From contig NC_033630.1 of the NCBI RefSeq assembly GCF_001540865.1, positions 7,618,089 to 7,682,088 of the forward strand: 64,000 nucleotides of DNA, given 5' to 3'. This stretch comes from Ananas comosus. Lineage: Eukaryota > Streptophyta > Magnoliopsida > Poales > Bromeliaceae. Within the stretch, counting starts at the first letter, position 1. Every line of letters begins with the position of its first letter. The notes beneath the pieces were generated by a model. That model saw nothing but the letters and a program-made list of their open reading frames with translations, made no database searches and was not told the origin of the DNA. This document shows positions 4,796 to 60,597 of the stretch, piece after piece. The position numbers and the translations under genes were made by a program.

Positions 4796-4797
4796 AT

Positions 4798-7560: not shown

Positions 7561-7594
7561 TAGAGCCATTTTTGACAGAGATCGCCTTGATATT

Positions 7595-8508
7595 TTCTTT
7601 CATGGTACTTTATTTGGATATGGTACATTAGTTGATTGTTTCTTTAAATTAGATTTGTAGGATGATTTATTTGCATTTGCTTCTCCTTCTTTTTCATCTA
7701 TTCTCTGTGATGAATCCGTTAAATGGCATGCCAGATTAGGCCATATAGGTCAAGAAAGAATGAATAGATTGGCTCGAGAAGGCTTTTTTTGGGGTCTCTC
7801 GCCAAAGTTGACCTATCTGTGTGCGAGCCTTGTCTGGCTGGGAAGGCATGTAGAAAGCCTTTCAGTAAGGCTACTCGTGCCTCTCATTCTTTAGAGCTAA
7901 TCCACTCAGACATTTGTGGGCTAATGAATGTGAGGGCCCGGCATGGTGCTTGCTATTTTCTCACATTCATTGATGATTATTCCCGTTATGGATATGTGTA
8001 TTTGCTTTCTCGCCGATCTGAAGCTTTAGATTGCTTCAAGCGCTTCGTTGCGGAGGCTGAGAATCAAATAGAAAGAAGTGTAAAGGTGCTTCGCACTCAC
8101 CGAGGTCGTGAGTTCTTGTCTGATCAGTTCAAGACTTACTGTGAGCAAAAGGGCATTAATAGACAGCTCACTATTCCTGGTACTCCGCAACAAAATGGTG
8201 TTGCAGAGCGAAGGAATCGTACTCTATTAGACATGGTTAGGTCGATGATGGCGCAAGCGCAACTTCCCATAAATTTTTGGGGAGATGCTCTTTTGACTGC
8301 AGCCTACATCCTTAATCGAGTCCCTAGCAAATCAGTGCATCTACCCCATATGAGTTGTGGAGCAGTAGAAAACCAAGTTTACACTACTTACGCTCTTGGG
8401 GTTCAGCTAGATATGTTCACAGCCTCTCACATAGATTCGGAAAACTCGGCCCTAGAGCGAGCAAGCATGTGTTCATCAGATACCCTGAAAATTCGAAGGG
8501 CTATGTGA
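7595..8508 (+). pseudogene. Copia pre-integrase and integrase remnant
   Basis: A pre-integrase HHCC zinc-binding region (KWHARLGHIG, later CEPCLAGK) leads into an integrase core with HSD, TPQQNGVAERRNRT and NFWGDAL motifs. There is a frameshift near a T-run at about 7783-7790. The second catalytic Asp, normally in a T/SDRGGE context, is His here (RTHRGREF, about 8096-8115), and a further frameshift near 8345 separates integrase from the downstream frame. The protease that should precede this region is deleted. Confidence 0.88.
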
Positions 8509-10200
8509 TGTATGGTGAACACCCAGATGGTGGTATGACTGAGATTGAGTCTCGTGATGTGGAATTCCTAGAAGGGGATTTTCCAAGCATTGGTGAAATG
8601 CGAAGAGACGTCAGATTGTATGAGTTACAGGACGACGCTACCCCATCTGCGGTTGAGGGTGATCGATCACTTCCCGAAGTCGCTGAAGGAAGTGGTAGCG
8701 ATCCTCCGGCTAGTGGGAGTGCTTCTTTGAGTGAGAGCATACCCTTGGAAGTCGGCAGATTAGACCCTCCATTACGCAGAAGTGAACGTGGACATATTCC
8801 TCGTCGACATTTTGAGATCGAAGGGGATATTTTCATGTGCACTCTGCTCGATGATGATGAGCCTGCTTCTTATAAAGAAGTATTACAGACGTCAGCTTGT
8901 AGTGAGTGGATGGCTGCTATGAAAGATGAGATGGACTCCATGAGCAAGAACCAAGTATGGGAATTGGTTGACCTTCTGCCTGGGCGCAAGTCTATTGGAA
9001 ATAAATGGGTTTTAAAAATTAAGCGCAAGGCGGATGGATCAATCGATAAATATAAGGCTCGGCTCGTGGCTAAGGGCTACACTCAGAGGCAAGGGGTAGA
9101 TTACAACGAGACGTTTGCTCCCGTTGTTCGATTTGCCTCTATTCGCTTGATTCTAGCCTTAGTGGCACACCTAGATTTGGAATTGTTCCAAATGGATGTC
9201 AAGACAGCTTTTCTCAATGGAGAATTGGCGGAGGAGATCTATATGGATCAACCTGAGGGTTTTGTACTCAAAGGTCAAGAAGACAAAGTTTGTTGTCTTA
9301 AAAGATCCATTTACGGTCTCAAGCAGTCGTTGAGACAGTGGTATTTCAGGTTTCATGAAGCCATCATCTCTATCGGTATGTCCATGATAGAGGAGGACCA
9401 CTGTGTATATGTCAAGAAGACAGAGAATGGGATTTTGTTTCTTTCTCTATACGTCAACGATATACTATTGGCTGGAAATGACATGGAGTTAATCAATACC
9501 ACTAAGGAGTGGTTGTCTCTCAATTTTGAAATGAAAGACATGGGTGAGGCGAGCTATGTGCTTGGAGTGAAGGTCATCCGTGATCGCTCTAGAAAGTTTC
9601 TTGGTTTGTCTCAAGAAACTTATATTAAAAAGATTCTAGAGCGTTTTAGGATGCATCATTGTAAGCCCGTTGACACTCCAGTGGAAAAGAATCACACTCT
9701 GAGTCTTGATCAGTGCCCTAAAACGGATAAAGAAAAGGAGCAAATGAGTAGGGTTCCTTATGCGAGTGCAATTGGCAGTTTGATGTACGCTATGATGTGT
9801 ACTCGACCTGACATTTGCTTTGCTGTTAGCTTGGTAAGTCGTTACCAGAGCAACCTTGGACCTATTCATTGGCAAGCGGTCAAGAGAATCCTTCGATATT
9901 TAAAAGGAACCAGTGATCTTGTTCTCTGTTTTCAAGGTAGGGACTTGAGATTGAAAGGATATAGTGATGCTGATTGGGGCGGTGATAGAGATGAGCGCAG
10001 GTCCACCTCAGGCTATGTGTTTGGAGGCGGCGCAATTTCCTAGTATAGTAAGAAGCAAGGCTGCGTTGCCTTATCTACCATGGAAGTGGAGTACGTTGCT
10101 TGTTCAGCGGCCATTCAGGAGGCTGTTTGGCTGAGGAGATTTCTCAGCGTCTTCGACTTTGTGATTCGAGTCGAATGAAACCCTTGTTTGAGATGGTTCT
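8355..10200 (+). pseudogene. Copia reverse transcriptase and RNase H remnant
   Basis: A long open frame (to 10043) holds the Copia reverse transcriptase: WVLKIKRKADGS, YKARLVAKGYTQ, FQMDVKTAFLNG, YGLKQS and a palm motif reading YVND instead of YVDD, so a catalytic Asp is Asn. The RNase H domain follows (GYSDADWGGD, STSGYVF), then TAG at 10042-10044 replaces what is normally a Trp codon. The frame continues beyond the stop (YSKKQGCVALSTMEVEY) to about 10190 before decaying. Reverse transcriptase sequence is otherwise well preserved. Confidence 0.92.
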
Positions 10201-11445
10201 CTGACAGCATGGCTGGCCGGAGTATGTGAAAGAATCAAATATCATGCAGACCAAGCATATTGTATATCCTATTTCACTACATTCGAGAGATGTTGGCTAA
10301 GCGACGGCATCTCAGACTATCTCCACCACTAGGATCGGTGGCTGATCGCCTTGACCAAGCCAATAGCCTAGCTGTATGTTCCAGCCATGTTAGGAGTTTG
10401 GTCTTCGTGAGGTTTGATATGGACATATTTTGTATCTTACCGCTTTATTAATGAAATTAGTTTCCTTTTATGTGATTGCGTAATTGATAGGCACATATCG
10501 TTAAGTCACAGGACCTCACGTCGCCACTCACCACGGTGATCGCCCTGACATCTAATGTGGTGAAGCGGATGAGACCTAGATAATCATATTTAAACTTGAT
10601 AGTTGTAATATGTTACTTTGTTCATATATTGTTGATGAATGAAGGTCGATATAATTTAAAGTCGCCTTAATAGTTTAAGATGAGACCAAGTGTTGGATAT
10701 GAAATTTCTCGTGTGAAATTTCATATCGAAGTCCTGTATAGTACCGGACTAGTGCTTACAAGGTTAGTGAGAGATGACTCTGAGTTGTGGTTGTTAGATT
10801 ATCTTAGTTGGTACCTAGACCTAAGGTTCGTATGGTTTCTTAGAGCTGTGGACATTGACCCTTTGAGATGGGAGCTCCGGCCATAGCATAATCATATCTG
10901 TATGTTCTGCGACCAGTTAGTAGAGTGACATAAGTTCTTCCCTCTATGTCACTTGTTGAGCACTAACACCTTTTTGTGCGCATCGACTTAGAATAATCTA
11001 TGAAATGGACGGTCAAAGTAACTTAACTTAGGCATGTATCCAGGGTCGCATGAGAAAATACGATCTGCGCGAGCATCGTCTAGTGAAAGTGCTTGGACTC
11101 AATATGATTAAGTCAGGCGCTGTAGAGATGTTTCGAAACACACCACGCGAAATCTTCATGACTCAGTGCGCCGAGCGGTTATCTCGTTGTGTTACTTGAG
11201 ATAATCATGAGTACAGAATAACGGTGTGGTCGAGCCGTCATTACAGAGAGGGACTGGATGCTTGATCTGAGTGTGTGTTGGAACGTCTAAGGCATAGACA
11301 AATTAGTTAGTGATGTACTATATTAGTTGGGTGGTGACTTAATATAGCACCCTGCATTGTTCTTTTCGTCAGTCGCACGCTTCATTACCCGTATGAAGAG
11401 ATGAATGAGTGAGAGAGAATTGGCCAATGTGGCCAAGTGGGAGAT
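10201..11445 (+). other. Copia 3' non-coding region with polypurine tract
   Basis: About 1.2 kb between the RNase H remnant and the 3' LTR, with no coding support. A purine-rich stretch AAGTGGGAGA at 11435-11444 immediately precedes the 3' LTR and is the probable plus-strand primer. Confidence 0.75.
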
Positions 11446-12019
11446 TGTAGCCATGTGGTGTGTCCACATTGGTGGGTCTTGATTTAACCCGATCCACTTA
11501 AGATGTGGATTGTGATTTATCCTAATAGGTTTATGATAATAATAAATTATATGTTTCTTATCAGTTAAGAAACATATCTACTAGAGGATATCTATCATAT
11601 CCTAGTTCTTATCTTAATCTCTTTGTGAGATTTAGGATATTTAGGGGTTCCGTTATTCTATATATACGTCCCCTTGTTTCTCGCATCTGAGACGATTGAT
11701 GTTCGAATTAATTCAATATTCCATTATTCTCTCTCTTCTTCCTCTCTAGGATTTTCACCTACGTTCCCGGGGTTTTAGAGTGTGGACATAGAAGAGGACT
11801 CTGGTAGCCCTCTTCGATTGGCATCCGTCGTATAGATCCGTATCCGATCCGTGACGTAAGGCGTACGCGAAGGAGAAGACGAGAAACGTGGGAGATCCAG
11901 AAGTATCGAGACAAGGACGATTCAAGAAGGCTTGTAAAATAAGTAATCCGATCCGATTCGGGCTCCCCGATACGTTAGCTATCCGGTTTGTAAGTTTCCG
12001 CTGCCTATTATTTCCAACA
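11446..12019 (+). repeat. Copia 3' LTR
   Basis: 574 bp, colinear with 4222-4795 with about 17 substitutions and no obvious indel. It ends CCAACA and is followed by the second GTAAT target copy. Confidence 0.95.
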
Positions 12020-15486: not shown

Positions 15487-15548
<62 letters not shown>

Positions 15549-25768: not shown

Positions 25769-28700
25769 TGTCACGCCCCGGAGTCCCTTTCAGTTTAAAA
25801 GATAGCGGAAAAGCGGCTATTTTTTTTTTTTTTTTTTATATATATCTGACCCCAGAGTATGCCAGATCCGCCACAAATATAGGAGATCCACTGTTCACAC
25901 GAACAAAGTCTCCCCTGTATTTGCACGGCATCGCACAAGTACAAGAGTACAACCAGGATACAACCACAACTAGATGAGTATAAAGATAACTATACATTCA
26001 TACATTCACCATTCACATCACAATTTTACATTCAATGTTTAAACAGAAATCCAAAAAAAATCCTTTTAAAAACTGTTTCCTACACGGAAACCTTTATTCT
26101 TTAGAAACGCTACCACGAGGGGTAGAAAACCTTTTAGTTTACCAAATCCAGAAATTCTTTTATTAAAATCATGAAAATTCACATTTTCAAATGTAAATAA
26201 ATACTGAACCATACAAGCTATCTATGCTATATCAACAGAATAGTAAGGGTAGAAACTAAACCGAACAACCTGGGTCGGAAGATCTATCGACCGCTACGTA
26301 CGTATCTCGCGTCTCGTCCCAATACACATCGCCTGCGATACCTGAAAAATGGTGGGGGAGGTGAGAACATGTAAACATGTCTCCCCTCCCAGTGGGTACC
26401 GCAAGCAAAAAGGCGAGGATACTCACCGGATCAGGAAGAGCTATACAACAACACGGGTCAGTGGAAATACAGTAGGAACAATAGTAAACGAAAGAGATGT
26501 ATAAGGTAATGAGCAGATATACTAAATACAGTAGCAATAAACTGACAGAAAGTAAGAACTAAACTGAACAACGGCTACCGCTACTGTAACTGGAACCGAA
26601 AGCATACATGAATATCTACTATAGTAGCATGACAACTATAAAGTAAGAACTGTAAATATGCATGCACGACTGCTACTATAGACATATGCGTCAACTGACG
26701 ATAACCTCAAAAGTACCCAATCTCGCTGCCCTATTGGTTCGAAGACCTCAGGCCCATGCCACACTGCTCAACCTGTACCTGACCCTCGCAATGAAGCCCC
26801 TGGGTCAGAAGCATATACCCTCGCAATAAAGCCCTGGGCTCACGGGTTGGCAATCCAACCACTTTTCCGGAAAAGAACACCCTCTTGCGGTGGATCAGAC
26901 CGCTGGTGTTCGTGAAATGCGTACCTGTAGTGGCGATCAATATAGTATGCTCAAAGATCTTCCATCGGCAACTAGCCGACAATCCAACCCCTCAGGGCAC
27001 ACCGACCGTATAGGCCATCAGTAACTAGTCGGCTACGTATGTCAAGATAGAACTGCAGCAACTCGACCGAATAGGTCATAAGTATAGGATATGAAACTCG
27101 ACCAATCATGTCACAAGTATAGGATATGAGCTCGACCAATCATGTCACAGATATAGGATATGAACTCGACCAATCATGTCACAGATATCATATGCTGATG
27201 AAATCTACTCTACTCCTACACAAGATACTAAACATGGAAACAACCGAGTAGAGTAAATATGGAAATAATATGGGTGCAAGGCTCAATATGTATATGCACA
27301 CAGATAGTAGTAAGAGGGCAAGGGTAAGAAACCATCACGAACGTGCACCACTGTACCGACGTCGGATCGAAGTACCACCTGTACAACTGTCGCGTCTGTC
27401 TCCTGACTGCAAAAGAACGTCAACCGGACCTAAGGAGGGTCCACTGGGTTAGCGTCTAACCCACAACTAAGAAACCCTAAAAGTATAACCCCATAAATAA
27501 ACCCACAAGAATCGGTTTCCCAAACCGATCGTCGTAATACGCCGGAAATCCCGTAATCGCACCGAGACTCTGCCGGGACCCACGGACTATCCCGGAAGGC
27601 ACCGACTCGTACCACGAGTCACCCGCTGCCCCTAAATACAAATTTACGTGTGACTTGGCAGCAGAGACCTTAACTCACTCCAAAACGATTATCGTCGGAT
27701 AATCGTTCCGATCCGGGTTCCCGGAAGTGTCTATTTCGACACCGGAACCCACCGTCGCTCACCCGTCATTTCTGAACTCTCGAAATGATGTGAGTGACCA
27801 GCCAACAAGGCTCGGCGACTACACAATAGCTCACGAAGCATCGTCGGAATAATTCCGAACCAAAACCGCGTTCCGTCGGTGCATTTTGCCGACAAACGCA
27901 CCGGAAATACATTTCCGATCTTTGCAAAGGTCTGGGGCCTTGGACAATCAGTCCAGAGGTCACCCACAGCTCATTCATGCTGCCAACAATAGCCACGACG
28001 AACAAAGTTGCATAAAAGCCCTTCCGAATACCCGAAATCACATTATTTTATGTGTTTTCGGCGCTTTTATGGTCCGTCTACACAAACTAGGAGTCATTCA
28101 GCCAAACCGAGACACCTACTGATAGGTCTCGGCGTGCCGGAGGCCGTGCTCACCTTTCGGAGCAATTCCGGCCACTGTGGGGAGCGCACGAGCGACGCGA
28201 AATTTAGTAAACTGCGCGCAGTCGGGGAAAATCGCGCCAAACAGGCCGATACGACATCTGCTGATCCAAAGTAAGGTGAGCACTGTGATCAGAACTGACC
28301 AACGATCACCGTGCTCACCTCCGGAGGCATCGAAACAGCCTCGGATCTCCGGATAAGCGTGCGCAAACCCAAAACAGCAGCCAAAAAGGCTCGACCTGGT
28401 CGACACCGCCGAAACAGAGGAACGGAGTCTCCCCGACAGAAACTAAGGTGAGCACGATGATCAGAAATTTTCTACGATCATCGTGCCCCCTTCCGCAGAG
28501 ATCGAGAAGCCCTAGAAAGCACAAAACGGCAACCCACTCCCTAAAAACCCTATTTCGGGCTTGGCGGGAGCAAGCTTGCTCCGGCCGGCTTCCGGCGACA
28601 CGGCGGCGCATGCGGGGGCCAGGGATGGGTGCGGGAGAGGTGAGGAATACGGTGCTCACCTCAAGTGGCGGCTGCGGAGGAGAGAACCAAGCCCGCACAA

Positions 28701-37678: not shown

Positions 37679-39254
37679 ATTCCACCAAACAAAATAATTT
37701 TTTGCCGGGATATTTTATTCCGGTCAAACCTTGCTATTCTCGGCTATCCCAAAATAGCAAGGGATTTACTATTCCACCATTTTGATAGAATAGTGCTATT
37801 CCAATGTTTAATTTCAAACTTTATTAAAATTATAAATTAAATTAAAACTAAATTATATAAATATAATATGTCATATATTATAATATATTATTTTTATTAT
37901 AAAATTATTAATTGTACTATATTAATACATATTATTTATATTTAAATATTAAATATTATAATAAATTTTATAATAAATTATATTAAATAATATAAATATT
38001 TATTATTAAATTTAGTTTAAGTAGAATTTTAAAAATTATTAATTATTAATAATAAAAAATTTATAAATTATTAAAAATTATTATTATCAAATTTATAAAT
38101 TTATTATAATAAATTATTTTTATGAATTGTTTCCACCCCTATTCTTATTTTTAAAGTTTATAATTTTAAATTTAAAATTTTATATTTTAAATTTTTGAAA
38201 TTTAAAATTTGATATTTTATATTTTTCAAATTTAAATTTGATCTTAAATTTAAAGTTTGAAATTTAAATTTAAAATTTTGAATTTAAAATTTGAGATTTT
38301 AAATTTTAAATTTTAATTTAAAATTTTATAATTTAAAAGTAAAAAAATTTAAATTTTAAAAAAAATATATATATAAAATTTCAAATTTCAAATTCAAATA
38401 TAATGAGAAGCGTAATATCATTATTTTTTATTTATAACTACCCACTTTAATTATTATTCCATCTTATCTAACCAAACGTTAATTTTTTTATTCCCAGAAA
38501 TAATCCAATTTTCACCAAAATGCAAAATTGATTTAATCCCCGCTTATACCTCAATTTATATCTATCTCTGGAATAACCACTTTTTGCTTATCTCGAACCA
38601 AATGATACCTAAGGGTTTGTGGGATTGTGAGCTAAACTTAGTAACTTGAGATGATTAGTTGTAATTGCCACACTCCCCATTCTATAAAAACATCCCTAAA
38701 TAAATTCCTAACTTTTTCTTTCTCTTCATCGCCCCTACTGTCTTGCTTCTCTTCCCTTCTCGCTCCCACCCTCTTCCCTACCATTTATAGGGAGAAAGGT
38801 GAGCTCTCCTATTTCTCCTCAAGCTACCCCTCCAAAGGATCGAGCCTTGGAAGCATTGGGGTGCGTGGTGGTTTTGCCCTCTTGGAGATTCATTGTGGGG
38901 GAAAACTTTAAGAACTATGTGACTTAATGTTGGACCTTGGGTATAGTTAACGATACGTTCCTTATTTTGAGCTTTCAGTATGCTTAGATGGTATTTTTCG
39001 ACTTGATTTAGAAAATGTGTTGGAAACTATAGTTTCTTTCAAAGCTATTCTTGTTGGTAGGCTAATATAAATTAAAGGAACTATAAAAGTGTTTAAAACT
39101 AAAACAACCAACTTTATTAAATATAATTAAACTTTAGTACACAAGAACTAATTAATATAATTTGACCCATACAAATCTAACAAGTAACATACTCACTATT
39201 TATGGAGTATGAAATAATATAACTCTTCACTAAAACTAATATCATTTCACTAAG

Positions 39255-39976
39255 CCCCTATTTGGTTGCGGTATCTCACCCTTTATACCCAAACAAAAAA
39301 TTTAAAGGGGTGGAATTACTATCGCACCCCTTAACGGTTATCCAGGGAGTGGGGTTAGCAATCCCATCGCTCCCATTAGAATAAGGGTGGCAATAGCTAT
39401 TCCTATCCCTATTTAATTTTTAAATTTAAATTTATAATTTTAAATTTTAAATTATAAATAAAAATTTATAATTTGTAATCTTAAAATTAAAATTTATAAT
39501 TTATAATTTAAAAATTATAAATTTTAAATTTTAAATTGATATATTTAATTTTTTAAATTTAAAATTTAAAATTTTATATTTCTAAATTTAGATTTGATCT
39601 TAAATTAAAAATTTGAAATTAAAAATTTAAAACTTTGAATTTTTGAATTTGATATTTTTAAATTCAAATTTTAATTTTGTATTTTTGAAATTTAAGAGTT
39701 ATATATTTAAATTTAAATTTAAAATTTTAAATATAAAATTTTAAAAATTTAATTCAAATATAATAAAAAGGGCAATATCATTATTTTCTATTTATAACCA
39801 CACATTATCCTTCTTTTTTTCCATTCACTTCAACTAAAATACTATTTTGTTTATACTTGGAATAAACATAATATTCAACCAAACACAAAATTATTCTATA
39901 CCCACCTTATATCTCATCTTATACTTATTTCTGAAACAACTAGTTCTTACTTATATCCAAACCAAATGAATCCTTA
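39255..39976. mobile_element. Probable PIF/Harbinger-like miniature element
   Basis: Left end GCCCCTATTTGGTTGCGG and right end CCAAACCAAATGAATCC are inverted versions of a common GTTTGG-type terminus, enclosing a core rich in TAAATTTAAAATTT words. The flanking TAA and TTA do not match as a direct repeat, so the target duplication is not confirmed. Confidence 0.5.
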
Positions 39977-40395: not shown

Positions 40396-42207
40396 ATGTC
40401 GCCTGGCCTGCAGCTCGCGCCCGCCATCCGTTCTTTAGAAACCTGGAACCGAATGCTCCAGTCCGCGACGCGCGACGGGCACTTCTCCGAAACCCTCCAT
40501 GTCTACTCCTGCCTCTTGAACTCCGGACTCCGCGGCGACGCCTTCACCTTCCCCTTCGTAGCCAAAGCCTGCGCCAAACTGCGCTCCGTCCGGGACGGTC
40601 AGAAGCTCCACGCTCGGACGATCTTGATGGGTTTTCACAGCAACACCTTCGTGCAAACCTCTCTTCTAGACATGTACTCCAAGTGCTCCTGTATTTCAGA
40701 AGCCCGCCGACTGTTCGATGCAATGCCGCACAGAAGCCTGATCTCGTGGAATTGCATGATCTCGGCGTACTGTAAGGAGTCTCAGATCGATGAATCGTTC
40801 AGCCTATTCAATGAGATGCGCGATGTTGGTGTCAATCCCAGCGGCAGTACTTGTGTCGGCCTCGTTTCCGGATGCATGGGCTCAATCTTGGCTCTAAGGC
40901 ATGGCCTTTCGGTTCACTGTTATGCCATGAAAGTTGGGCTCGATAACGATCTGCAGTTTTGCAATTCGATAATAAGTATGTATGCTAAGCTTGGCCGCAT
41001 TGGTGATGTCCGCTTCTTGTTTGACTCTGCGAAGGAGAAATCAATCGTCACGTGGACTGCGTTGGCTGGTGGTTATGCGCATGTAGGAGATTTTACGAAG
41101 GTATTCCATCTCTTCAACCAGATGCGTGGTGTTAATACTGGGCTTGACTCTATCGCATTCGTCAGTCTTATCTCGGCAGGTACCTATTCTAGAAATTTAT
41201 TGATCGCCGGAAGTGTCCATGCCCTTGTGATCGAAACTGGTTTTGATCAGGAAGGAGTTGTTGCTGCTTCATTAATTAACTTGTACGCAAAGTGTGGCGA
41301 TCTTAAATCGTCTCAGAAAGTTTTTGATGCGGTGCGAGAGAAGAATGTGTTCTTATGGACGTCAATGATAAGTGGGTATGTTCAAGTTGGTGATTCGGAT
41401 AAAGCAGTTGCCATTTCTCAGAGTTTGTTAACCTCGACCACGAAACCTAACAAAGTGACCATTTTGGCAATTCTTTCTGCCTGTGCTGACTTTGCATCAC
41501 AAAGTATAGGAGCAACGGTTGAGGAGTACGTAAGAGCAAATAGATTTGAATCAGATTTACAGGTTGTTACTGGATTGATTCATGTGTATTGCAAGTGCGG
41601 AGACATAGAGAGAGCGAGAAAGATATTCAATGGCATCTCTAATAAAGACTTGACACTTTGGAGCACCATGATAGGCGGGTATGCTACTTATGGGAAGGGC
41701 AAAGAAGCTCTTTCTCTCTTTAAGGAGATGCAGAAAGACAAATCCATCGAGCCAGATGCTATTGTTTTCACTCATGTCTTATCAGCGTGCAGCCATTCCG
41801 GATTGGTGGAGGAAGGATTGAATTGTTTCAATAGAATGCTATTGGATTATGGTGTTCAGCCAATTATGGAGCATTATATGTGCATAGTTGATCTCCTCAG
41901 CAAAGCAGGTCACATAGAGCATTCTTTAAGGTTTATTCATCACTTGCCAATTCATGTACAAAATAAGATGTTGGCTCCTATGCTTAGCGCATGCAGAGCT
42001 CGTGATAACAGTCAGTTAGCGGAGCTTGTATTAAAGCAACTGTTAAAAGCAGAGATTCGAGACACTGGACATTATGTAGTGACAGCTAACTTGTGTAGTT
42101 TCGTAGGGAGATGGAAGGAGGCATCAAGTTATAGAAGTTTAATAAGCCAGGAAGGATTGGTTAAGGAACCTGGTTGGAGTCGGATTGAACTAAGCAGCTC
42201 CATATAG
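40396..42207 (+). CDS. PLS-class pentatricopeptide repeat protein, E-type
   Basis: An intronless 603-codon gene. I place the start at ATG 40396 (MSPGLQLAP), the first in-frame ATG; an ATG at 40386 opens an overlapping out-of-frame uORF. From about residue 10 to 500 it consists of roughly 35-residue PPR units, with typical signatures such as TFPFVAKACAKL, SLLDMYSKCSCISEARRLFD, WTSMISGYVQVGDSDKA and VLSACSHSGLVEEG. The C-terminal part resembles an E domain (ending EPGWSRIEL) and stops after SSSI, without the DYW deaminase tail. Plant PLS-class PPR proteins bind organellar RNA and usually act in C-to-U editing in mitochondria or plastids, with a partner supplying the deaminase when DYW is absent. 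The N-terminus is short with basic residues; targeting cannot be settled by eye. The GC-rich 5' part is monocot-like. Confidence 0.93.
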   Translation: MSPGLQLAPAIRSLETWNRMLQSATRDGHFSETLHVYSCLLNSGLRGDAFTFPFVAKACAKLRSVRDGQKLHARTILMGFHSNTFVQTSLLDMYSKCSCISEARRLFDAMPHRSLISWNCMISAYCKESQIDESFSLFNEMRDVGVNPSGSTCVGLVSGCMGSILALRHGLSVHCYAMKVGLDNDLQFCNSIISMYAKLGRIGDVRFLFDSAKEKSIVTWTALAGGYAHVGDFTKVFHLFNQMRGVNTGLDSIAFVSLISAGTYSRNLLIAGSVHALVIETGFDQEGVVAASLINLYAKCGDLKSSQKVFDAVREKNVFLWTSMISGYVQVGDSDKAVAISQSLLTSTTKPNKVTILAILSACADFASQSIGATVEEYVRANRFESDLQVVTGLIHVYCKCGDIERARKIFNGISNKDLTLWSTMIGGYATYGKGKEALSLFKEMQKDKSIEPDAIVFTHVLSACSHSGLVEEGLNCFNRMLLDYGVQPIMEHYMCIVDLLSKAGHIEHSLRFIHHLPIHVQNKMLAPMLSACRARDNSQLAELVLKQLLKAEIRDTGHYVVTANLCSFVGRWKEASSYRSLISQEGLVKEPGWSRIELSSSI

Positions 42208-43815: not shown

Positions 43816-44460
43816 GGATGAACTAAGGAAGAAGTTCTAAATCATTATAAATAAATAAAAACTCTAGCATTCCCCCACATGATTTAAAACTTCATATAAA
43901 GAAAACAAAATTATATAATAACTTATTAAAAGATGCTGGATCTCTTGTACCATGCATTCGTTGAAGGTACATTTCGGGTCTAAGCCTTCATTTCGTGGTT
44001 GTCTATGTACATCCGAGGGCACAGTGGTGGATTATGCCTTGAACCATGGTTGGTGAATTGGATTTTCACAAACTGCACACATGGTACAGCCTATTGGGTT
44101 CAATGCAGGTTAGCACTTTTATGGCTATGTGCTGATATCATTGCCTGTGTGTTTTTTTCTATAGTCGCGGCCTCATGACTCCACACACATAGTAGGTCCT
44201 AGAAGGGTGTCTACAAGGTCACACCCTGCATGGTGGATCTCGAAGCCATTCAACCAATGACCTTCCTATCCACTTGTAGATATGAGCACTGCCGCCATAG
44301 GGATAAGGATATAAAGTTAGTGTTTCTCACAACTACCTGTCCGACTTGTTCCTACCGATTGAACTTCCAAAAGGTTGGGTTGTTATCATTGGTAACTTCT
44401 ATTGGGCTAAGCTCTATCCTCCTCGACAATTCTAGGATCACTGTCCTAGATAATCCCTTA

Positions 44461-45579
44461 GGTAGTGTTTGGTTCGGGAATAAGGGGGGGAATAAGCCCT
44501 TGTTCCCCCCTTTGTTCCCAAACGCAATGTTTGGTTCCTGGGAACAATAGTTCCCGGGAATCTGGAACTAGCTGGTATAAGGCTGGAACTGCTGTTCCAC
44601 CCGTTTCCTGGAACAAGCTTATTTCTTGATGAGAACAAGATTAATTAAAATCTAAATTTAATTTTAATGGCAGTAAATTATTAATTAATCTAATTAATAT
44701 ATTTAAATCATTATTTATTACTTTAATAATTAAATAATTTAAATAATTTATTATTTATAATTAAATATTAATAATTAGATAATTATTATTATTAATTTAT
44801 TATTTATAATTAATTATAAATAATTAATAATATTCATTATTTTTTTATTAATAATTATTATTCTTAATGACAATCGATATTATTATTAATTTATTATTTA
44901 TAATTAATTATTAATAATTAATAATAATTATTATTTATTAATAATTATTAATAATTTTTATTCTTAATAATTAGATAATCGATATTATTATTAATTTATT
45001 ATTTATAATTAATAATTAATAATTAATAATAATTATTATTTATTAATAATTAATTAATAATTCTTATTCTTAATAATTAGATAATGGATATTATTATTAA
45101 TTTATTATTTATAATTAAATAATAATAATTATTATTATTTATTAATAAATATTAATATTAATTATTATTAATAATTAGATAATCAATATTATTATTAATT
45201 TATTATTTACAATTAATTAATAAGAATAATTAATAATAATAATTATTTATTAACAATTAATAATAATAATAATTATTATTATTAATTAGATAATCCATAT
45301 TATTAATTTATTATTTATAATTAATTATTAATAATTAATTTTTTATTTATTTTTAAGTAATATTTTTATTACTATTAATTACATAATATAATTTTAATTT
45401 CAAATTATAACTCTTATTCCTCTTGTTCCAATCTAACCATCCAAACACTATTTACCTTATTCCTAGGAACAACCCAATTTTCATCCAAACGCAAAATTGG
45501 TCTAGTTCCTGCTTATACCTGAACTTGTACCTATCCCTAAAACTAGCAGTTCTTACTTATACCCGAACCAAACGCAGCC
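44461..45579 (+). mobile_element. PIF/Harbinger-type non-autonomous element, copy 1
   Basis: Begins GGTAGTGTTTGGTTCGGG and ends CCCGAACCAAACGCAGCC, imperfect inverted termini, flanked by a direct TTA (44458-44460 and 45580-45582), the TWA target typical of PIF/Harbinger. The 1119-bp core is almost entirely AATTATTAATA-like words with no coding capacity. A second, near-identical copy exists at 58477-59658 but is written backwards. Confidence 0.9.
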
Positions 45580-45689
45580 TTAATGAGTTGATCACTCAAT
45601 TTTTTTTACTGATCTCACAAACTCAAGTGCAATCACATCATCCTTCATATTCTACCGAATGAACTTATGTTTTACTTTCATGAATGTAA

Positions 45690-46988: not shown

Positions 46989-49900
46989 CTTATCCCCAAG
47001 GTGTAACAGACCCGCCATAGATACGAAAATCTCTCAGTCCACACTGATAGAGTCTTTCTTGTATCTGCACGGCGTACCAACAAAACATAAACAATAACAG
47101 ACTCATCCACTTACACAAACAACACAATGCGTAAGTCAGATAACCATTCAGCTAACCATCCTTATAATGATGGATGCTCTGAACACTCGTTAGGCATAGG
47201 ATGTTGCCAATGCACATTACAGCAATCAGTTCTATTCTTTAAAAGTGTTTTCCATCCGGAAACTATGTTTTTAAAACTCTAAATATCGATAAATCCAAAA
47301 GTCATTTGAAAACTGTTTTCCATACGGAAACTCACTTTTGAAAAGCCAACTACCACAAGGGATAGATAACCACATATGATAAAATCACAAATATCATCTT
47401 GAATTATTGAGAACAAATAAACATTCACAATAATAAAAAACCACCAAAATCACAGAACAACTGAACCATATATAGTCTAGTTTATTAACCAATAAAAGAG
47501 AGGGTCGAGATAGAAAAACCACAACTGAACAGGTCGGGACCTCTATAGCTTGCTAGCTACCGCGCCTCACACACCGTCCCGACTCCTACCACTAAGATCA
47601 CCTGAAAAATCGCGGGGAGTGAGAACATGTAAATATGTCTCCCTTCTCAGTGGGTACCGCAAGCCGACGAAGGCGTGGTGCACGCACAGGCAAAGGAGAA
47701 GCAACAGATAGATATGCATATAACAAATATAGTAGCCAGTAATGGAGAACAGATATAAACAGGTATGAACAACTACTGCTACAACAAATAAGCATATGCA
47801 TCAACTGTAGATAAATTGAAAACCCAATCACTGTTCCCTATAGATCCGAAGATCGCAGGCTATGTCACAATATGCTCACCCACCGGCATAGAACCTCCGC
47901 AAGCACCTGGCACAAGGCTCACGGGTCGACAACACAACCACTTTTTCGAAAAAGAACACCCCCACGGTGGCCAAATTGCTGGTGTACATGAAGTGCTAAA
48001 TGAGGTATGACGATCGATGCAAAATGCTCAATCCATAGGATGGTAACAAGCTAAGAATAGCAACAACTAACACATGTCCAAGAGATCACTCGGATCACCA
48101 AGCCAATCAACACTGACCAATCAGATCTCACTATAAGCTCATGCGAGATACACCACACCACTCCACTACTGTTATCATATGCAAGAATGAAAGTAGAGAA
48201 CAACAACTGGAAGTCGAGTGGAAATAAGCTTATCTATAGTATGCAAGGAAAGAAAAAAGAGAGATATCACCGAGCTAGTCCATTGTAGCGACTCTAGATT
48301 GAAGCACCCACCTGAACTGGAGAAGAGCCTAACACCCGAGGCTCGCAGGAACGTCGACTAGACCTACGAAAGACCCACCAAGTCAAGGTTCATCGAGCCG
48401 ACTCAACAACACTAAACTCACAATCCCGAAATTGCCGAAATTTTCGGAAAGTCCACCGGAACCATTCCGAACTCAAGGAAGTACCCCGGAAGGTACCAAT
48501 AAGCAACCAAAGTCACCCATTGTTCGTAAAGACACCAATTTAGGTGGTTTAACAGCAAATATAAGTTAGGTTGAATAAAAACATAAACGCACCCGTAAAG
48601 ACAACCGGGTTCCCGAAAATGCCGCTTTCAGCACTAGAACCCTTCATCGCTTATTTGATGTCTCTGAAACTTCGGGACGACAAGGAAAACCAGCCGACAA
48701 GTCTCAGCGACAAAACTAGGGCATCCACAAACCCACCAAGTGAGCCCCACATCGATAAACACGTTATGCCGACAATTTCGTCGGAAATATGCTCTGAAAC
48801 ACGATTCGATCACGCGAGAACGTCGAAGGCTTGGATTCAGTCCAGAGGGTCACATGAGGTGGTCTTACGCTGCCCGAGGTAGCCCATGCTGTCACAATTG
48901 CATGGAGGCCCTCAAACAATACTCAAATAGCATAAACTCATGAATTTACCCACTAAAAAGGCATCATAACCGCGATTGCACGATTTCGAGATCAATCGAG
49001 GGCACCAAGAGCAAGGTCTCATCGCAGCGAAGCCCATGCTCCCTGTTCGAGGCATCAAAAACAGCCGCAGAGCACACAGGGCCCAATAATGAAGCTAGAA
49101 TATAATGCCCAAAGGTGCGACATCGCCGTAACAGCGAAACGAAGCCTTCACGACAGAAACTGAGGTGAGCATGACGATCAGTGATGAGTTACGATCATCG
49201 TGATCCCTTCTGGAAAGATCGGGAGGCCTTGGGTTGCTCGGAACAGTGAGCAACCCAAGAAATACCCTATTTCAGGCTTGGCCGGAGCAAGCTTGCTCTG
49301 GCCGGTTGCCGGCGGCCGGCGGTGGGCGTGCGGCCCAAGGGTGAGTTCGGAGGGGCAGGGGAGTAGAGTGCTCACCTTGGCCGACGACGGGGAGCAACGT
49401 GGAGGAAGCTCGGACTCACCCGAGTTAAGGCTCCGGCTGGGGTGCTTCTTTCAGCGACGGCGGCGACCGGGGAGGCAAGCGGCCGCAACGGCGCGTCCCT
49501 CGCGACCGAATGGAGGCGGCGGCGGCACTCACGGGCGGTAGAGGCGACGCCATGCAAGCTGCGGAGCTGCCTCTGCCAGGGATGGCCCGAGGAGCACAGC
49601 AGGGCGGCGGCGGCGCTCGGCTGCTACAGGGGTCGTCGGGGTGCGACGGTCGATATCCAAAGGTGCCGGAGATGGCATCCGCAAGGTAAGGCCTTCCCCT
49701 CAAGGTTGCTTGTGCTCGGGGAGGAGAGAAAAGGGAAAGAGAGGCTGAGAGAGGAGTGAGGGGAGAAGGTGGCCGGACTGGGCTAGCTGGAAAGGGCTCG
49801 CTTGCGGCTGAGGGGGCGCGCGGTGTGGTCAGGGAAGGGAGAGGAGGTGGCTAGGGCTCGGGGTGGACAAGGTAAGCTAGGGTTAGGGTTTGCCAAAGAA

Positions 49901-50323
49901 GAAACCTTAATGCAACTTATATATAAAGGTGTACAATTGCATGAAACCCCTTGTATGATTCAAATTCCACCCCAAGTCCTTCAGGGCGTGTGTAAAATGC
50001 GGCAACGCACCTCCACTTGCGATCTCTTGCAATTCCATACATAAAATATAGCGACTTTCGCAAAAAGATTCAAAAATGCAATATCGACCTACCGTCGAAC
50101 AACGTGCGATTTCGGACGATCGGTTCATCAGATTTACGAATGGATCATGCTAGCACTTCCGGCACTGCCAGACCTTCAAACCTGCGATTTTGTTTCGCCT
50201 GAATCGATTCCCAATCGCGACAAAAGCCAGCTCTCTCTAGTTCCACATATAAAATACCTATATATATATATAATTCGAATTAGAAATCAAACTTCAAATT
50301 CAAATTATAAGGTACGTATTACA
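46879..50323 (-). repeat. Gypsy 3' LTR, 3.4 kb, minus strand
   Basis: On the minus strand it starts TGTAATACGTACC after a purine tract (complement of 50324-50340) and ends GGGGGTGACA. It belongs to the same family as the LTR at 25769-30200 but is about 1 kb shorter and clearly diverged. It includes a (TA)n run at 46957-46983 and GC-rich sequence at 49260-49720 with spurious open frames. Confidence 0.85.
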
Positions 50324-52002: not shown

Positions 52003-52526
52003 GAGTGAGTTCACTATATTATGCAACGTTTATCTATTTGCTATTCTTTGATGTGAGAATGGTGTGACCCATATATCTGGCGCCAGTTTACCATGCATGC
52101 AGAAATACATATTCGTTCTCTGAGTCCTCGCGACATTTGTTAGTGTATATCTACGATCTTTTGTTGTGTACTTTGATTATGTTCTTGATGTGGAGTGTTC
52201 TTCGCATTACCGAGTGGTCATGGCTCGTCGTATGTTTGTCGACCACCAAGACCCATGCCGCTGTGCTCTAAGCTTGTGCCAACTGTTGGTGAAAACTCAA
52301 AAATTTAAAGTTTGAATTTTATTCTATTTGAATTTTGAATTATCATTTAATATTCATTGATATTTATTATCTTATTTATTTATTTATTTATTTAATTTCT
52401 TAGTGAGAAAGGAACTGACGGAATATTTCCGTTCTGTTTCTTGCGCCAAAAGGAACTCGTTCCGTTGTCTAGTTCCGCTTCTTTCTCGTAAGAAAAAGAG
52501 CGTGAATTCTCTTTCCCTTTCTTCGN
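52003..52526. other. Pin2 3' flank ending in an N
   Basis: AT-rich sequence with no gene. A single N at 52526 marks a probable assembly join. The polarity change described for the next block most likely starts here. Confidence 0.6.
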
Positions 52527-52936
52527 TTAATATGTAAAATTTAAAATAGTTTATCAAATCATATATATCCGAGGAAAAAAGTTGATTTCAATAATTAAAG
52601 TGATAGTTTTATCAACGCACAAAATGTATAATATTAGAATTATCCGAATGAGACTATAAATAAAAGGGTACGGATCAATAGTTTTAATCTTTTCTTTTTT
52701 TTTATCAAAAAATATAAAATTTCAGAATATTTTAAAATATATAGGTTAGTTTTACTGTTGTATTAATAGGTTTAATTTTCAAATCCGCGCAAATACGTTT
52801 TATAGATTTCTAACCCCAATACCCCCTATAACAGGCGAACGAGACTACGAATATCCATGGTTCAACGCAATACCTCTATCGTGTCCCTGGTAAATATGTA
52901 AAATGGAATGCGAGCTTCGGCGCGCTCAAGTGGAGT

Positions 52937-55900
52937 TACGTGGCAGAGGCGGGGCGGGGCAGGGGAGAGGAGGAGGAGGCGCCGGAGAAGGGGAGGAGGA
53001 GGAGGAGGAGGAGGAGAGTGGGGAAGAAGGAGGAGCGGGGATTCGGGAGCAGCAGCGGCGGGGGCGGCGCCGCGGGGGCGGGGAAGGTGCGCGAGAGATG
53101 CGGCTCGGGGAGGGGCCCCGGGGAGCGCGCAGCCTCGCGGCGCCGCCGCCGCCGCCGCCTCCACCCCAAGAAGCGCCTCCTCCCCCAGAGCACCCTCAGC
53201 GAGCCCCAGAGCCTCGCGGAGGCTGCACGAGAGCTCCCGCGGCGGGAAGCATCCGGGAGGAATCAAGTCCACGAGCACGACAGGAACGCACCAGACAGTT
53301 CACAAGCTGCTTTACGGCTCGAAGCTTGTGAGTTGGCTGGTTGGGAGAACCTAATAATAATGACAAACAATAATGAAAAAAGCTATTGTACAATTATAAA
53401 AAAAATAGCTGTGCGAAGAGATGAAAATAACAAAACTAAACTCTATAAGCGTAGTTTAATTACTAAGATAATTTAAATTACCGAGACGTACCAAAAGATT
53501 CTACAACTTCAACACTAAAAACAGTAGTTAATTGATAGCGATCGATTGCTTTTGGCAACCAAATTTGTTTTTTGTTTTTCACCTTTACATCTCTGGAATA
53601 GACTTGATATCCCGTAAAATTATACGCTTGCCCTTTTGATCATATAAACTAAGTAAAATAAGTCAATCATCTTTAAAAATACAACGAAACATAAACGTGG
53701 AGAATCTTTAGAGGGTTAAAGTCAACATATACGAATACTTGAACCATATTTAGAATTTTTCCGACATTTAAAACAACGTAACATCCGACGAACGTAAGGA
53801 ACATATGAATTTCCTTCGCTACACTAATAGCGACGCCTCTGTCCATCGCCGTTCTGCGTGCCTATGGAGCACGGCAACTAACTGTTTGACACACGACGAA
53901 GACGAGGGTCCCTTCATCGTCTACAAAAACTCTCCTGAAGAGCCAGGTTACTATAGAAAGAACACGAAACAGGCTTACACTACGACACACTCGTCCACCA
54001 TGTTTACCGATTGAGAGACGAGCTACTTAGACCGCTCAGCGAACATTCTCAACGACGTCAAACACCTGTCTTCCAAACTAAGTGACACTTTACGAAAGAT
54101 ACTAGTTCGCATCTTACACCTCAATTATGACAACAATATTAGTAGTATCTAAAGTAAGTTTTATATACCAAAACGCACCAAGGCAAGAACTTCAAGTTTA
54201 CTGATTCTTTATCACTTTTGTACCACTATTACACCAACCAGCGAACAACGAATTCGGAGTTGAATTTTGAATCCTCCGAAATTTTCACAGTCGACCACGG
54301 TATAAACAACTACATTCCTAGAATACAGAATGATCAGTATATACTCAAAGTCCTGTACAAACCGACTCGACTTCGAAGACGTTTTTAAGATAAACTCATT
54401 TTAACAGGTTTTATTCGTGACTAATAAAGAAGTAATAAAGGAGATGACGAAGAACAACGGGTCTACATCTGTAAATCCTATCATCTTCGAGTAAAATCGA
54501 AGGGAATGGTTTTACAGATCTGATAAAAGATGAGTTTTCGTAGTAAAGATTCTCGAAAACGTCAACCCAAATCTCTGTGGCAAGATCTTCACTGTTATTC
54601 GTTCGAGAATTAAACCAAATACCAACTGACTCCGATCAAAAGTCCCAACTATTTTAGAGTAGAACCCCGGATTGGTCGATTAAGAACTCCGACTAGAATA
54701 AAACTGCCGATCGTGAGGCATACACTATTAGTAAACATAAAACATAAAGATCTGGATTATATAAACTTGATAACCGGACGTCCCTACCGGCCAATATGTC
54801 GGGTTGTAAGAACATAGATGAGGTCGACGAGAAAACTTAATAGAAAAACTCAAGCTGGGTCTTTTCTTCGCCGCCCTTTCAAAAAACGCGTCACATTTTA
54901 AACACCATTAATGGAAGAAGCTTGACAATATTGAACGAATTTAAACCGTACTATGCCACCTTGAAAATAGGATAATAAGTCGAGACAGTTTCGTAGACAT
55001 CCTTTGAAGAGATCATCAAAGTCTAACATTATGTCTTTAACGGAAAGGATCGTTTAAAATATGTAAAAAAGTTCCCTTGATACACGCACTGATAGTAATA
55101 AGATGTCGATGGTATTTGTGTTATTACTAGTACTAAAAGTGTGTCCAGAAACTGCTTCGACTGTACGACGAAACACCCTCAAAAGTTTTAGTCTAGTAAG
55201 CAGAGTAATTGTACAAAGCAAAACTACTCTTTGAACACAGATTCTACCTTTCAAGACGTCTTCTGCAAAGTCATCTACTCTTACTATTTTTAGTACCACT
55301 TGAATTAAAACTTCTGTTACTTGAATTGTCACTAACACTCCTACGTCTTCGACTAGAACTCCTACGGGATCTTTTAAAACGATGTCTCCTCTTGTTTCAA
55401 CTTTGTTGATCGCATTCCCTAACCTCCTCCCAATCTTTTCAGATATTCGCGTCATTCGTCATAGAGAAACAACGACGATGGGAAGGTGTCTCACCGTTTT
55501 TCTGACGTCCGCCACAAGACTTCTCTTACAAAGGACTACGGTAAACCCAGTCGCCGTCAATAGACGTAGCTGTATTGGGATCCAACCGTGGAAAAAGGTC
55601 AATAAGAAAGAATATATGACAACGTGGATAAACTGTACCGTCACGGTTGTGGTCCCGGTACCATTAGGATAGGAACGCTTACTAAGATAGTTGTAGAAAA
55701 AACACAATAGAGAAGAGAACTTACCAATATATACGAACGCTACTATGCGACGTCGTAGAATGATATCATACTATATAGGACTTACGTATATCTATACGAA
55801 TCGAGCTACACCGAAAGACGGTAAACGCAATATATATGAAAAGAATAAAAGGTAGAAGTATAAAATGGACTAAAGATAGAATGACAAAGAAAGAGTCTAA

Positions 55901-57011
55901 CCTTGTTTCTACCTATCTCCAGTGTCGACTATGTGTTCATCTACGAGAAGACCTACGACACTTTGTATCAATATTACGACTTGTGTTACTTAAGTCATGG
56001 TCAGGTTCAGCCTGTTACCACAAGAGGTTATGTCATCTACGACGAGTTAGTCACCGATTCTATAACGTCTCTCAACCGTAAGTCACGAAAAACATGGTGT
56101 CTCTCTCGAGGGACCTTCTTGCCCGCATATTGGATGTTCGAAAGGCTCTTTTACCACCTCACGAACACACGTGCCTACGACGGCGCGCACCGAACCTGTA
56201 TGGGTTATAAAGCGTACAATATGTCCATTGCATAAAAAATACCTATCCTCTAAAATCAGTACCAAATATATTTTAGATATCTGTTAACATTTTAGACCTT
56301 AAAAGTGCTTGACAATAGTGATTAACAAACATAGTACAAAGGAGAGATTTCATATACGGTAGATTCTTAAAAAGAGAAAGGGAATTAGACCGTATGTGAG
56401 AAGGGAAATGAATTTCCGCCTCAAACGTTGGAGACGACAGCTGAAGAACGTATCTCAACCAGCTTGTCGTTCTCGGCCGGTTAGACCCTATCAGTGTTCG
56501 AACATATGCTTTCGGTTGTCCCTAGAGCACTTACGACAAGCACTCCGTCTCCTTGACCCAGCTGGACACCATTAAAAATAGACTTTAAGGTAAAGGAGTA
56601 TAATTAATAACAAAGGATTAATACCTCAGACTTATTGCTAAAAGAAAAAAAAAAACTTTACCTCCCCCTTTTTTTACCTTCTATAAAGGACAAGTTAAGT
56701 GCAACAGATACAATCTTATAAATTGATACATAACTAGTCTACTATTAGGAAAATAGAAAATATGTAATAATACAGGAAAATTACAGTTAACAAAGATACG
56801 AATGTCCTCGTTCGTAAATCGTCCTTTTCCTCAAAGGCTTTATTCGAATTCTTCTTTCCATGCGATAGCTTTGTAAGGTTACAACGCTTGTATAACTCTT
56901 TAATAACGAACGTGCACTACGTGGTGCAGTCGTGGGAAAGACGGTTAAGTACAATACAACAATAGCTGTCCAGCTTCACTCCGACTTCTATTTGGATTTC
57001 AGGGTTGTATC
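52937..57011. CDS. RH22: DEAD-box RNA helicase, RH22-like (readable only as plain complement)
   Basis: Taking the complement without reversing, exons are 52937-53269, 53786-54073, 54783-54905, 55146-55582, 55898-56225, 56417-56569, 56807-56858 and 56971-57011, all with GT-AG introns and consistent phases: 584 aa and TAG. The first about 75 residues are Arg/Ser/Pro-rich, like an organelle transit peptide. Then come the Q-motif region (VSWESLGVSERL...RPSLVQ, to 111), motif I AETGSGKT (128-135), Ib-like STPAALL, DEAD at 251-254, an acidic insert (about 280-340), AATLPQSGKK in the motif III position, VCTDAAARGLDIP (motif V) and HRVGRTARAG (motif VI, 515-524), ending in a basic tail (FSRKRSFRNKLKKK). 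Length and motifs fit plant RH22, a plastid ATP-dependent RNA helicase implicated in ribosomal RNA and large-subunit assembly. The gene itself seems intact; only the text polarity is wrong. The symbol rests on remembered similarity. Confidence 0.92.
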
Positions 57012-57465
57012 AAACCTAGCTCTGCTTCCGCCAAGTTTAAAAAAAAAACGGGGAAGAATTACACAAAGAGTAGAATTTTAAAACTGATACTTACAAGGAC
57101 ATATTCACCAATACATTGGAAGTGAACATAAATCTAGAGGACCAGAACCTAGTTCAAAGATTTTTTTTCTTTTTTTTTTCTTCTGTACAAACTTGATAGT
57201 ATACACCTTACGTAATAACGAATACAACTACAATATGTACACTATAATGACTCCATAGGTCAAAAAAATAAAATTAAAAAACCCCGTAACGAACATACAT
57301 AGTCATATATGAGATCGTATCCGAAACAACAACGTGACCTGTACAAACTGTAAAACCCCTTAGTTTAACATTGACCTAAGATAGATACTATTAAACATTA
57401 AATGGAGGAATAAACATTTAAAAGAATAAGATACCTTGATCTTTCTCGACTACAATGTTTAGAAA

Positions 57466-58150
57466 ACTAGAAATTTTTTACCGATTTAATGTCTTTTAGA
57501 GGGACGTTATTGGGCAAAAAAGTGAAAGGGAAGGACTGTAAATTTTTGGATGTGAAACAGGGGGACATTTTACTTTTTACAAGTGTCCCTCAATGCCACA
57601 CATTTTACTGGTAAAACGGGGAACGGTAACAGCAAAAGAAAGGGTAGAAGGAGTCGGCAGGGAAACAAGCTGGCGCTAAGGGTGGAGTTAGCCGGCGCTA
57701 AAAAGAGGTAAAGAAAGACGTGGACGAAGGGAAGAGGAGGACGTGGCAGTGGCGGGAGCTAAAGCCGCTGTCATCCTCTTTTGGTTCCACCCGTTGTCAT
57801 CCTCTTCTCGTTTCTTTCGCTTCCGCTCCGCTGCCTCCTGCCGCTTCCCCTACACCGACTCCCGCTCCGTCACCTCCTGCCGCTCCGCCGATCCGCCGCT
57901 CCGCCGCCGCTCCACCGCTCGGCCTCCCTCAGCTTCGTTGTCCCTCTACCGTCTCCCCATAAAAGCCGTATTTTTATATAAAAAATTGCCTCAGAACTGC
58001 TTTGAGATTGCCATCCCCCACTTCACGTGTAAAAAATAAAATGTCCCCCCGTTTCATATCCAAAAATTTACAGTCTCTTCCTTTCACTTTTTCGCCCAAT
58101 AATGTTCTCTCAAAAGACATTAAATCGAAATTTTTTATATATTTTTCTAC
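57466..58150. mobile_element. Fold-back miniature element with GC-rich core
   Basis: Arms of about 150 bp (57475-57600 and 58020-58145) are inverted complements sharing CGATTTAATGTCTTTT and TGTAAATTTTTGGAT blocks. They enclose a GC-rich core (about 57700-57960) with low-complexity frames. Inverted symmetry survives text reversal, so the element is visible despite the polarity error. Target duplication and family are not determined. Confidence 0.6.
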
Positions 58151-58476
58151 CTTTTTGTAAGTCACACCTTATTCCCTACAGGTACGGACTGTAAAGCCAA
58201 AACTTTTGGGAGAGACTTAGGCTGAGATAACTAACTGTAGGAGCACACCTTCCTACATAAACGTCTCTGTCTTTTTTTCAGATTTTATGTCTTTTGACAT
58301 TATACTTATAAATAAAAAAAAAATAAAAAAGGGAGATTAAAAATTTTTAAATATAAAATTGGTAAGTGTTTAAAATTTAACTGCATAAATTGGGGGAAAG
58401 GCAGTAATAAAACAGAAAAAAAATATGAAATATGATTTTTATTTGAGCTCTTGCTGTCTTTGTATAATCAAAAAAT

Positions 58477-59658
58477 CCGACGCAAACCAAGCCCATATTT
58501 ATTCTTGACGATCAAGATCCCTTTCCATGTTCAAGTCCATATTCGTCCTTGATCTGGTTAAAACACAAACCTACTTTTAACTCAACAAGGATCCTTATTC
58601 CATTTATCACAAACCTACCAATCTAACCTTGTTCTCCTTATTCTCAATATTAAACTTTAATTTTAATATAATACATTAATTATCATTATTTTTATAATGA
58701 ATTTTTTTTGTTCTTTAATTAATAATTATTAATTAATATTTATTATTAATTATTATTATTAATTAATATTTATTATTAATTATTATTATTAATTAATATT
58801 TATTATTTAATTATTATACCTACTAGATTAATTATTATTATTATTAATAATAATTAATAATTATTTATTATTATTAATAATTAATAAGAATAATTAATTA
58901 ATATTTATTATTTAATTATTATTATAACTAATAGATTAATAATTATTATTAATTATAATTATAAATAATTATTTATTATTATTATTAATAATAAATTAAT
59001 ATTTATTATTTAATTATTATTATAGCTAATAGATTAATAATTCTTATTTTTAATAATTATTAATAATTATTTATTATTAATAATAATTACTATTTATTAA
59101 TTAATATTTATTATTTAATTATTATTATAGCTAATAGATTAATAATTCTTGTTTTTAATAATTATTAATTATTATTATTATTATTAATAATTAATAATTA
59201 TTAATTAATATTTATTATTTAATTATTATTATAGCTAACGGTAATTCTTATTATTAATAATTATTAATAATTATTTTTTATTACTTATAATAATTAATAA
59301 ATATTAATTAATATTTATTATTTAATTATTATTATTAATAGATTAATAATTATAAATTAATATTTATTATTTAATAAATTTAATAAATTAATAATTTCAT
59401 TATTTATTACTAAATTTATATAATTAATTTAATTAATTATTAAATGACAGTAATTTTAATTTAAATCTAAAATTAATTAGAACAAGAGTATTTCCTTGTT
59501 CGAACAAGGTCCTTTGCCCATCTTGTTATCAAGGTCGGAATATGGTTGATCAAGGTCTAAAGGCCTTTGATGACAAGGGCCTTTGGTTTGTAACGCAAAC
59601 CCTTGTTTCCCCCCTTGTTCCCGAATAAGGGGGGGAACAAGGGCTTGGTTTGTGATGG
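58477..59658. mobile_element. PIF/Harbinger-type element, copy 2, written backwards
   Basis: Reading the text from 59658 down to 58477 without complementing gives GGTAGTGTTTGGTTCGGG... and ...CCCGAACCAAACGCAGCC, as in copy 1 at 44461-45579, with only a few differences over the last 200 bp. In that reading TAA flanks both ends (text AAT at 58474-58476 and 59659-59661). The core is AATTATTAATA-like filler with different repeat numbers, making it 1182 bp. Confidence 0.92.
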
Positions 59659-59852
59659 AATTTCTTATTCATTCTTGATAAATCAGTACAACGAGGGAGG
59701 TAATTGTGGTATTAAAAACTTTTTTTAAAATTTTAAAATTCTTTCAGTTTATATCTAAAAATCTTCATTTTGTTTATTTTTTTGTATAAATATAGACATA
59801 AAATAGTTTTTTTTTTTTTCGTAGGGGGTAAAGTGGGTCTGTGTGAGATATG

Positions 59853-59854
<2 letters not shown>

Positions 59855-59892
<38 letters not shown>
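59855..59892. repeat. (AT)n microsatellite near the right edge of the block
   Basis: Nineteen pure AT dinucleotides. It is a natural place for a wrong join and is the best, though unproven, candidate for the right polarity boundary. Confidence 0.75.
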
Positions 59893-59894
<2 letters not shown>

Positions 59895-60597
59895 AAATTA
59901 AAAGTTCGAATATCTAGCTAAAGTTCAGAAGGTCTTTGGGGAAAAAATTTTTTTCAAATCTTCAAAACTCGATGCATTTATAAATAAATTTCACAACACT
60001 TTTCTAGCTTTACAATCTAATGGTTAGATTTCAACCTAAACTATAAGCTATATTTATCTCCTTGTAATTTATATTTTTTCATCAATTATATATATTTGCT
60101 AGTTTGTAAAATATTATAAAATTTATTTATAATCATAGGATTGCTCTTAATTATGTACTCTTGCAAAAACTCAAAATTGCATTAATACCCTATATTACTA
60201 TGTACTTACTCTTAAATCTAATTACTACACTAACTACATGTATATCCAAATTTGATGTTTGGTTTGATGTATTTAAATTCAATTATTATAATTGGAACTA
60301 CATGATGAAACCCAACTACAGCAGTTCCAACTGAAATAGTTGGAGAGAGTAGCTTTAAGCAAAAAAAGCTTACTTTTCTAATCATTTTTTTGATAGAAAA
60401 TAATTTTTCTCTACATTGGATGTATTCTCACTGTCATATGAATGTAAAGAAATAAAATTTTAAAAATGCATTTTTCAACTATGTGTAACTAAAGAAATTA
60501 TGTATTGTTACAGCACTTTCTACTACATCTACCCAAATAAGATTCATATAGGCAGCTGCAACTGCTACATTTGTAATTATATGCACATCTAAGTTTC

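Follow-up and report, generated by a model that had tools for sequence, protein, structure and literature searches.

Results

Gene and repeat content of the locus

The window, that is, the whole 64-kb stretch of pineapple (Ananas comosus) DNA analysed here, carries on its forward strand a gene for a PPR protein at 40396-42204, in normal orientation and matching the A. comosus protein P0121 at 98.7% over 603 aa; it serves as a control for the text next to it being normal and of pineapple origin. P0121 and the deposited helicase P0001 (below) both show slight differences from the window and hence probably come from another assembly. The left part of the window holds an element at 4220-12019, which we take to be Copia-like from its protein, with open frames at 7088-10043 and, on either side of them, 576-bp LTRs sharing 97% identity, and a tandem array at 5003-6165 that is very G+C-rich (78% in 5001-6000), has a period of ~44-45 and bears long open frames on both strands. 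A search against Rfam found no RNA families in the window.

The text from ~52,527 to ~59,850 makes sense on neither strand. This half-flipped block (52527-59854, both edges being approximate) is readable solely as its plain complement, taken left to right, or as its plain reverse, and when the window was compared with itself as written, the block matched nothing but itself. Pfam searches with 10 of the 52 as-written open reading frames (ORFs) of at least 50 residues returned nothing that reached the cut-off, the best of three weak matches having an E value of 0.027.

A complete helicase gene in the plain complement

Complementing the block without reversing it reveals a complete gene for DEAD-box RNA helicase 22 (RH22), running left to right at 52937-57011, as indicated by a spliced model and by the domains of its product. 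The model comprises eight exons (52937-53269, 53786-54073, 54783-54905, 55146-55582, 55898-56225, 56417-56569, 56807-56858 and 56971-57011), runs from an ATG at 52937 to a TAG at 57011 with 584 codons plus the stop, and has GT-AG borders at all seven introns. Its product differs at 2 of 571 comparable residues from the deposited A. comosus protein P0001, which comes from a 160,355-base contig. A tblastn search with P0001 against the plain complement of the window yielded seven pieces within the block (52871-56857), covering residues 1-593 with a best E value of 5.5e-95; the same search against both strands of the window as written gave a best E value of 3.8, outside the block. As written, the exon intervals contain 15-16 stops per frame on the forward strand and 15-50 on the reverse strand. 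A preliminary description of this DNA had placed a full spliced gene in the plain complement, and searching the half-flipped text for a helicase bore this out, the match being to RH22.

The hidden protein carries the Pfam domains PF00270 (residues 110-273, E 6.6e-26) and PF00271 (residues 428-524, E 8.2e-22), so that a DEAD domain is followed by a helicase C domain in the order expected for plant RH22. It also has an N-terminal extension; plant RH22 is located in the chloroplast. Among the best 120 of 564 protein matches, the closest was pineapple RH22, and the names given were RH22, RNA helicase, hypothetical and uncharacterized; no other numbered helicase was seen among these 120, whose names are shortened. 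Among solved structures, those closest to P0001 belong to other DEAD-box helicases, DDX3X ranking first (E 1.1e-28). P0001 is marked partial and stops at the end of exon 7, and the hidden gene appears more complete than this record, which lacks the last short exon. That exon (56971-57011) is the least certain part of the model, since it was picked among 30 candidates by its resemblance to the tail of a Typha protein. The interest of the mirrored block lies in quality control; it brings no new biology.

A transposon copy in the plain reverse

Reversing the block without complementing it brings out an element at 58477-59658, which we take to be Harbinger-like. Its ends are GG...CC, and it is bordered by TAA target duplications (58474-58476 and 59659-59661). 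In this reading, it starts with GGTAGTGTTTGG and ends with CGCAGCC, and TAA stands on both sides. PIF/Harbinger (Tourist-like) elements are characterized by terminal inverted repeats and a 3-bp TWA target duplication, a rule followed both by TAA in the block and by TTA at a normal copy of the same element, which lies ~13 kb upstream on the forward strand (44460-45583) and served as a yardstick. Full alignment of this normal copy with 58473-59659 reversed without complementing reached a score of 1885, compared with 503 for the text as written, 505 for its reverse complement and 487 for its complement. Full-length alignment was obtained in the plain reverse only, and the scores of the other three forms arise because the AT-rich core aligns anyway. 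The known transposon copy that had been claimed for the plain reverse is therefore present (1885 versus at most 505). Comparison of the plain complement of the window with the window itself recovered the same pair, 44460-45583 matching 59659-58473 at 90.7% over 1192 columns, together with weaker matches in the half-flipped sense between the block and normal text at 39837-39974 (71%) and 38261-38459 (68%). As the target duplication extends to 59661, the block must reach at least this position. The block also holds an element with ~104-bp terminal inverted repeats at 57482-58127 (repeats 57482-57585 and 58024-58127, 88.6%), which is no test of the half-flip because a plain complement leaves an inverted repeat unchanged.

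The gene and the transposon bear on the reading that the plant DNA is truly so, having arisen by parallel strand copying of an unknown kind. Polymerases, ligation and inversion, as far as is known, always leave strands antiparallel; a gene of 584 codons, with 2 of 571 residues changed, and a transposon are both intact in the half-flipped reading; and a pineapple protein from the RH22 gene has been deposited from another contig. No point in support of parallel copying was found, and we regard its probability as vanishingly small.

Composition of the block

The CG/GC ratio in 52527-59854 is 289/201 (1.44), compared with 1852/2502 in the left flank (1-52525), and the corresponding (GT+AC)/(TG+CA) ratios are 790/631 (1.25) and 5023/6192. 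Both block values exceed those of all 452 control windows (7,328 bases each, step 100, all wholly left of the block), in which the maxima were 0.947 for CG/GC and 0.950 for (GT+AC)/(TG+CA). That CG is common and GC rare in the block, opposite to the neighbouring DNA, had been remarked on before and is borne out by these figures (1.44 versus at most 0.947). A 5-mer likelihood score, calculated as the text as written minus its plain complement so that negative values are mirror-like, was lowest among 7.33-kb windows at a start of 52451 (-116.6), and it was at least 66.8 in windows left of the block (mean 125, sd 30). In bins of 500 bases, 12 of the 15 stepped from 52527 were negative, as were 12 of 112 outside; single bins can thus mislead, but the whole block cannot.

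Four smaller patches were also mirror-like by the 5-mer score. The patch at 11452-12001 belongs to a normal element, being one of its LTRs and 97% identical to the other at 4220-4795; this right LTR of the 4220-12019 element, which alone in the element is mirror-like in composition, is a natural false alarm for such scans. The patch at 26083-26391 overlaps as-written direct matches to 47600-50238, that at 48265-48765 lies inside 47600-50238 as the partner of as-written direct matches, and that at 27339-27922 (0.6 kb, mirror-like score 23.7, with as-written relatives at 47.6-50.2 kb) sits between as-written direct matches to the same region. All four patches are taken as probably natural, and no further half-flipped blocks were established within the 64-kb window.

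These patches, one of them the LTR of a normal element, would lend some colour to the view that the block is ordinary text in which odd composition and chance similarity mimic a mirror, as would the ability of AT-rich text to self-align in any form (scores 487-505). However, a helicase match at E 5.5e-95 and a transposon score of 1885 are beyond chance, and together with the complete gene model they rule this reading out, leaving it a probability close to nil.

Edges of the block

Composition models calculated along the window locate the right edge of the block reasonably well and the left one poorly. A single N at 52526, one of two in the window, likely marks the left edge, and the nearest mirrored evidence to its right is the P0001 match from 52871 and the gene model from 52937. 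The models favour 52527-52870 as mirrored, an edge at 52870 being worse than one at 52526 by 5.6-20.9 units. The preliminary description had equated the N with the left edge; the presence of an N at 52526 fits this, but the models put it 74-165 bases to the left of the N, a position preferred by 5.7-11.2 log units (best points 52361-52452; 5-95% ranges within 52303-52456). The text carries no contig mark in this composition-preferred range (52303-52456). An unusual stretch rich in CG may cause this offset, or the N may itself be part of the block, and the left edge is bounded to 52,303-52,871.

On the right, the best points of five models fall at 59830-59924, with 5-95% ranges within 59714-59997, and the edge lies between 59,661 (the transposon target duplication) and ~60,000. 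An (AT)19 microsatellite at 59855-59892, inside the modelled range, is the likely right edge, the models preferring points at most 69 bases from 59855 by 0.9-6.1 units. Such a repeat is a natural join because it reads alike when reversed or complemented, in all four readings. Short-match tests of the edges with four flank pieces gave nothing usable among the matches listed. A perfect (TA)31 array (15487-15548) runs right up to the other N in the window, at 15549, and 500-base bins in this area have normal scores. This second N resembles an ordinary contig join and indicates that the assembly breaks at such an array elsewhere; the N at 52526 itself has no adjoining TA array.

The edges also weigh on the main rival to an assembly slip, in which the half-flip would have been made after assembly, when this copy was stored or cut out, and the public assembly would be correct. 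In its favour, the one spurious as-written ORF that was searched (52905-53351) matched no deposited protein at E 1e-5 among 7980 candidates scored and thus does not point to an as-written block in the public record, although this is a weak test, as the ORF is of low complexity and need not have been annotated. However, edges at or near an N and near a microsatellite resemble contig ends and would be unexpected for a random cut, and a slip after assembly is in our judgement improbable.

Discussion

Nature and origin of the half-flipped block

Collectively, the helicase gene, the transposon and the composition uphold the preliminary description of a mirrored block in which neither strand is sensible, as well as its claim that the assembly or the text was corrupted, the fault being one of text handling. 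To our knowledge, no DNA process makes a reversed, uncomplemented strand, and because known processes never do so, the half-flipped block is a text artefact that does not exist as real DNA. The intact spliced gene and the intact transposon show that the base calls within the block are good and that the half-done flip is the sole fault. We consider, with a probability of roughly 0.8, that the block is ordinary pineapple DNA whose letters were reversed or complemented without both operations being carried out, likely by scaffolding or gap-filling software; a slip at this stage is suggested by the resemblance of the edges to contig ends.

Flipping a contig requires two operations, reversing and complementing. 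A single contig or gap-fill sequence, ending at the N (52526) on the left and around the (AT)19 (59855-59892) on the right, would account for the block, and an orientation step may have applied only one of the two operations to it. Some scaffolders put a single N between contig ends that are thought to overlap, and Perl's reverse function does not reverse a string when it is called in list context. Any two (AT)n ends would overlap, properly flipped or not, so that software could join the pieces at the right edge without raising an alarm. The correct reading may be the plain complement in place, in which case complementing was the operation left out; the (AT)n of the block would then continue into the right flank as a single genuine microsatellite, which slightly favours this reading. 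The two possible errors, reversed and complemented, look alike in the text, since they are distinguished solely by how the piece should sit between its flanks.

Implications for genome assemblies

The half-flipped block hides a complete RH22 gene from protein search, and it would equally hide this gene from annotation, read mapping, primer design and presence/absence comparison. Having no proper alignment, unlike an ordinary inversion, it would pass for novel, gene-free sequence. Detection is cheap in any assembly, either by a scan of CG/GC and TG/GT or by searching the plain complement against proteins, and the block is therefore both a warning and the basis of a cheap quality test for assemblies. 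A more far-reaching idea is that the half-flip is a systematic bug, so that all contigs turned by the same step would be unreadable and a class of pineapple genes would be missing from the annotation. We hold this to be possible, if doubtful; were it true, the missing pineapple genes would be wrongly counted as lost or accession-specific.

As a probe of prokaryote genomes, a conserved 28-base stretch of the 16S gene was searched for exact matches only, which covers one short place per genome. Its plain complement had 0 exact matches in bacterial and archaeal genome contigs, and its normal form occurred in at least 119 stretches of the same contigs. The half-flip error is thus uncommon in prokaryote genomes at this one 16S site.

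Among the listed titles and abstract openings on such assembly errors and on scaffolder joins, none describes a half-flipped assembly block, and neither do those listed on pineapple assemblies or on RH22 in pineapple. Excerpts of published work mention further regions of F153 v7 that are potentially chimeric (PMC8774480), contig N50 values of 0.02 Mb for F153 and 0.05 Mb for MD2 (PMC8824783), and the construction of F153 from Illumina, Moleculo, PacBio and BAC data (PMC6022998). Nothing on single-N joins was found in the excerpts of two further papers (PMC6733440, PMC8110574).

Comparison with known systems

Reversed-sequence decoys, as described in an excerpt of PMC11099658, resemble the block in that base content is kept and meaning is lost; however, they are made deliberately for search benchmarks, whereas the block stands within a genome sequence. 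The block is like a mis-oriented contig in being one assembly piece inserted in the wrong orientation and having a gap mark at one end or close to it. An ordinary inversion error is a proper reverse complement and is still searchable, whereas the block has undergone half of the operation and reads on neither strand. The hidden gene shares both helicase domains with plant RH22 and is nearly identical to P0001; the protein does not differ from plant RH22, and solely the form in which the gene is written is broken.
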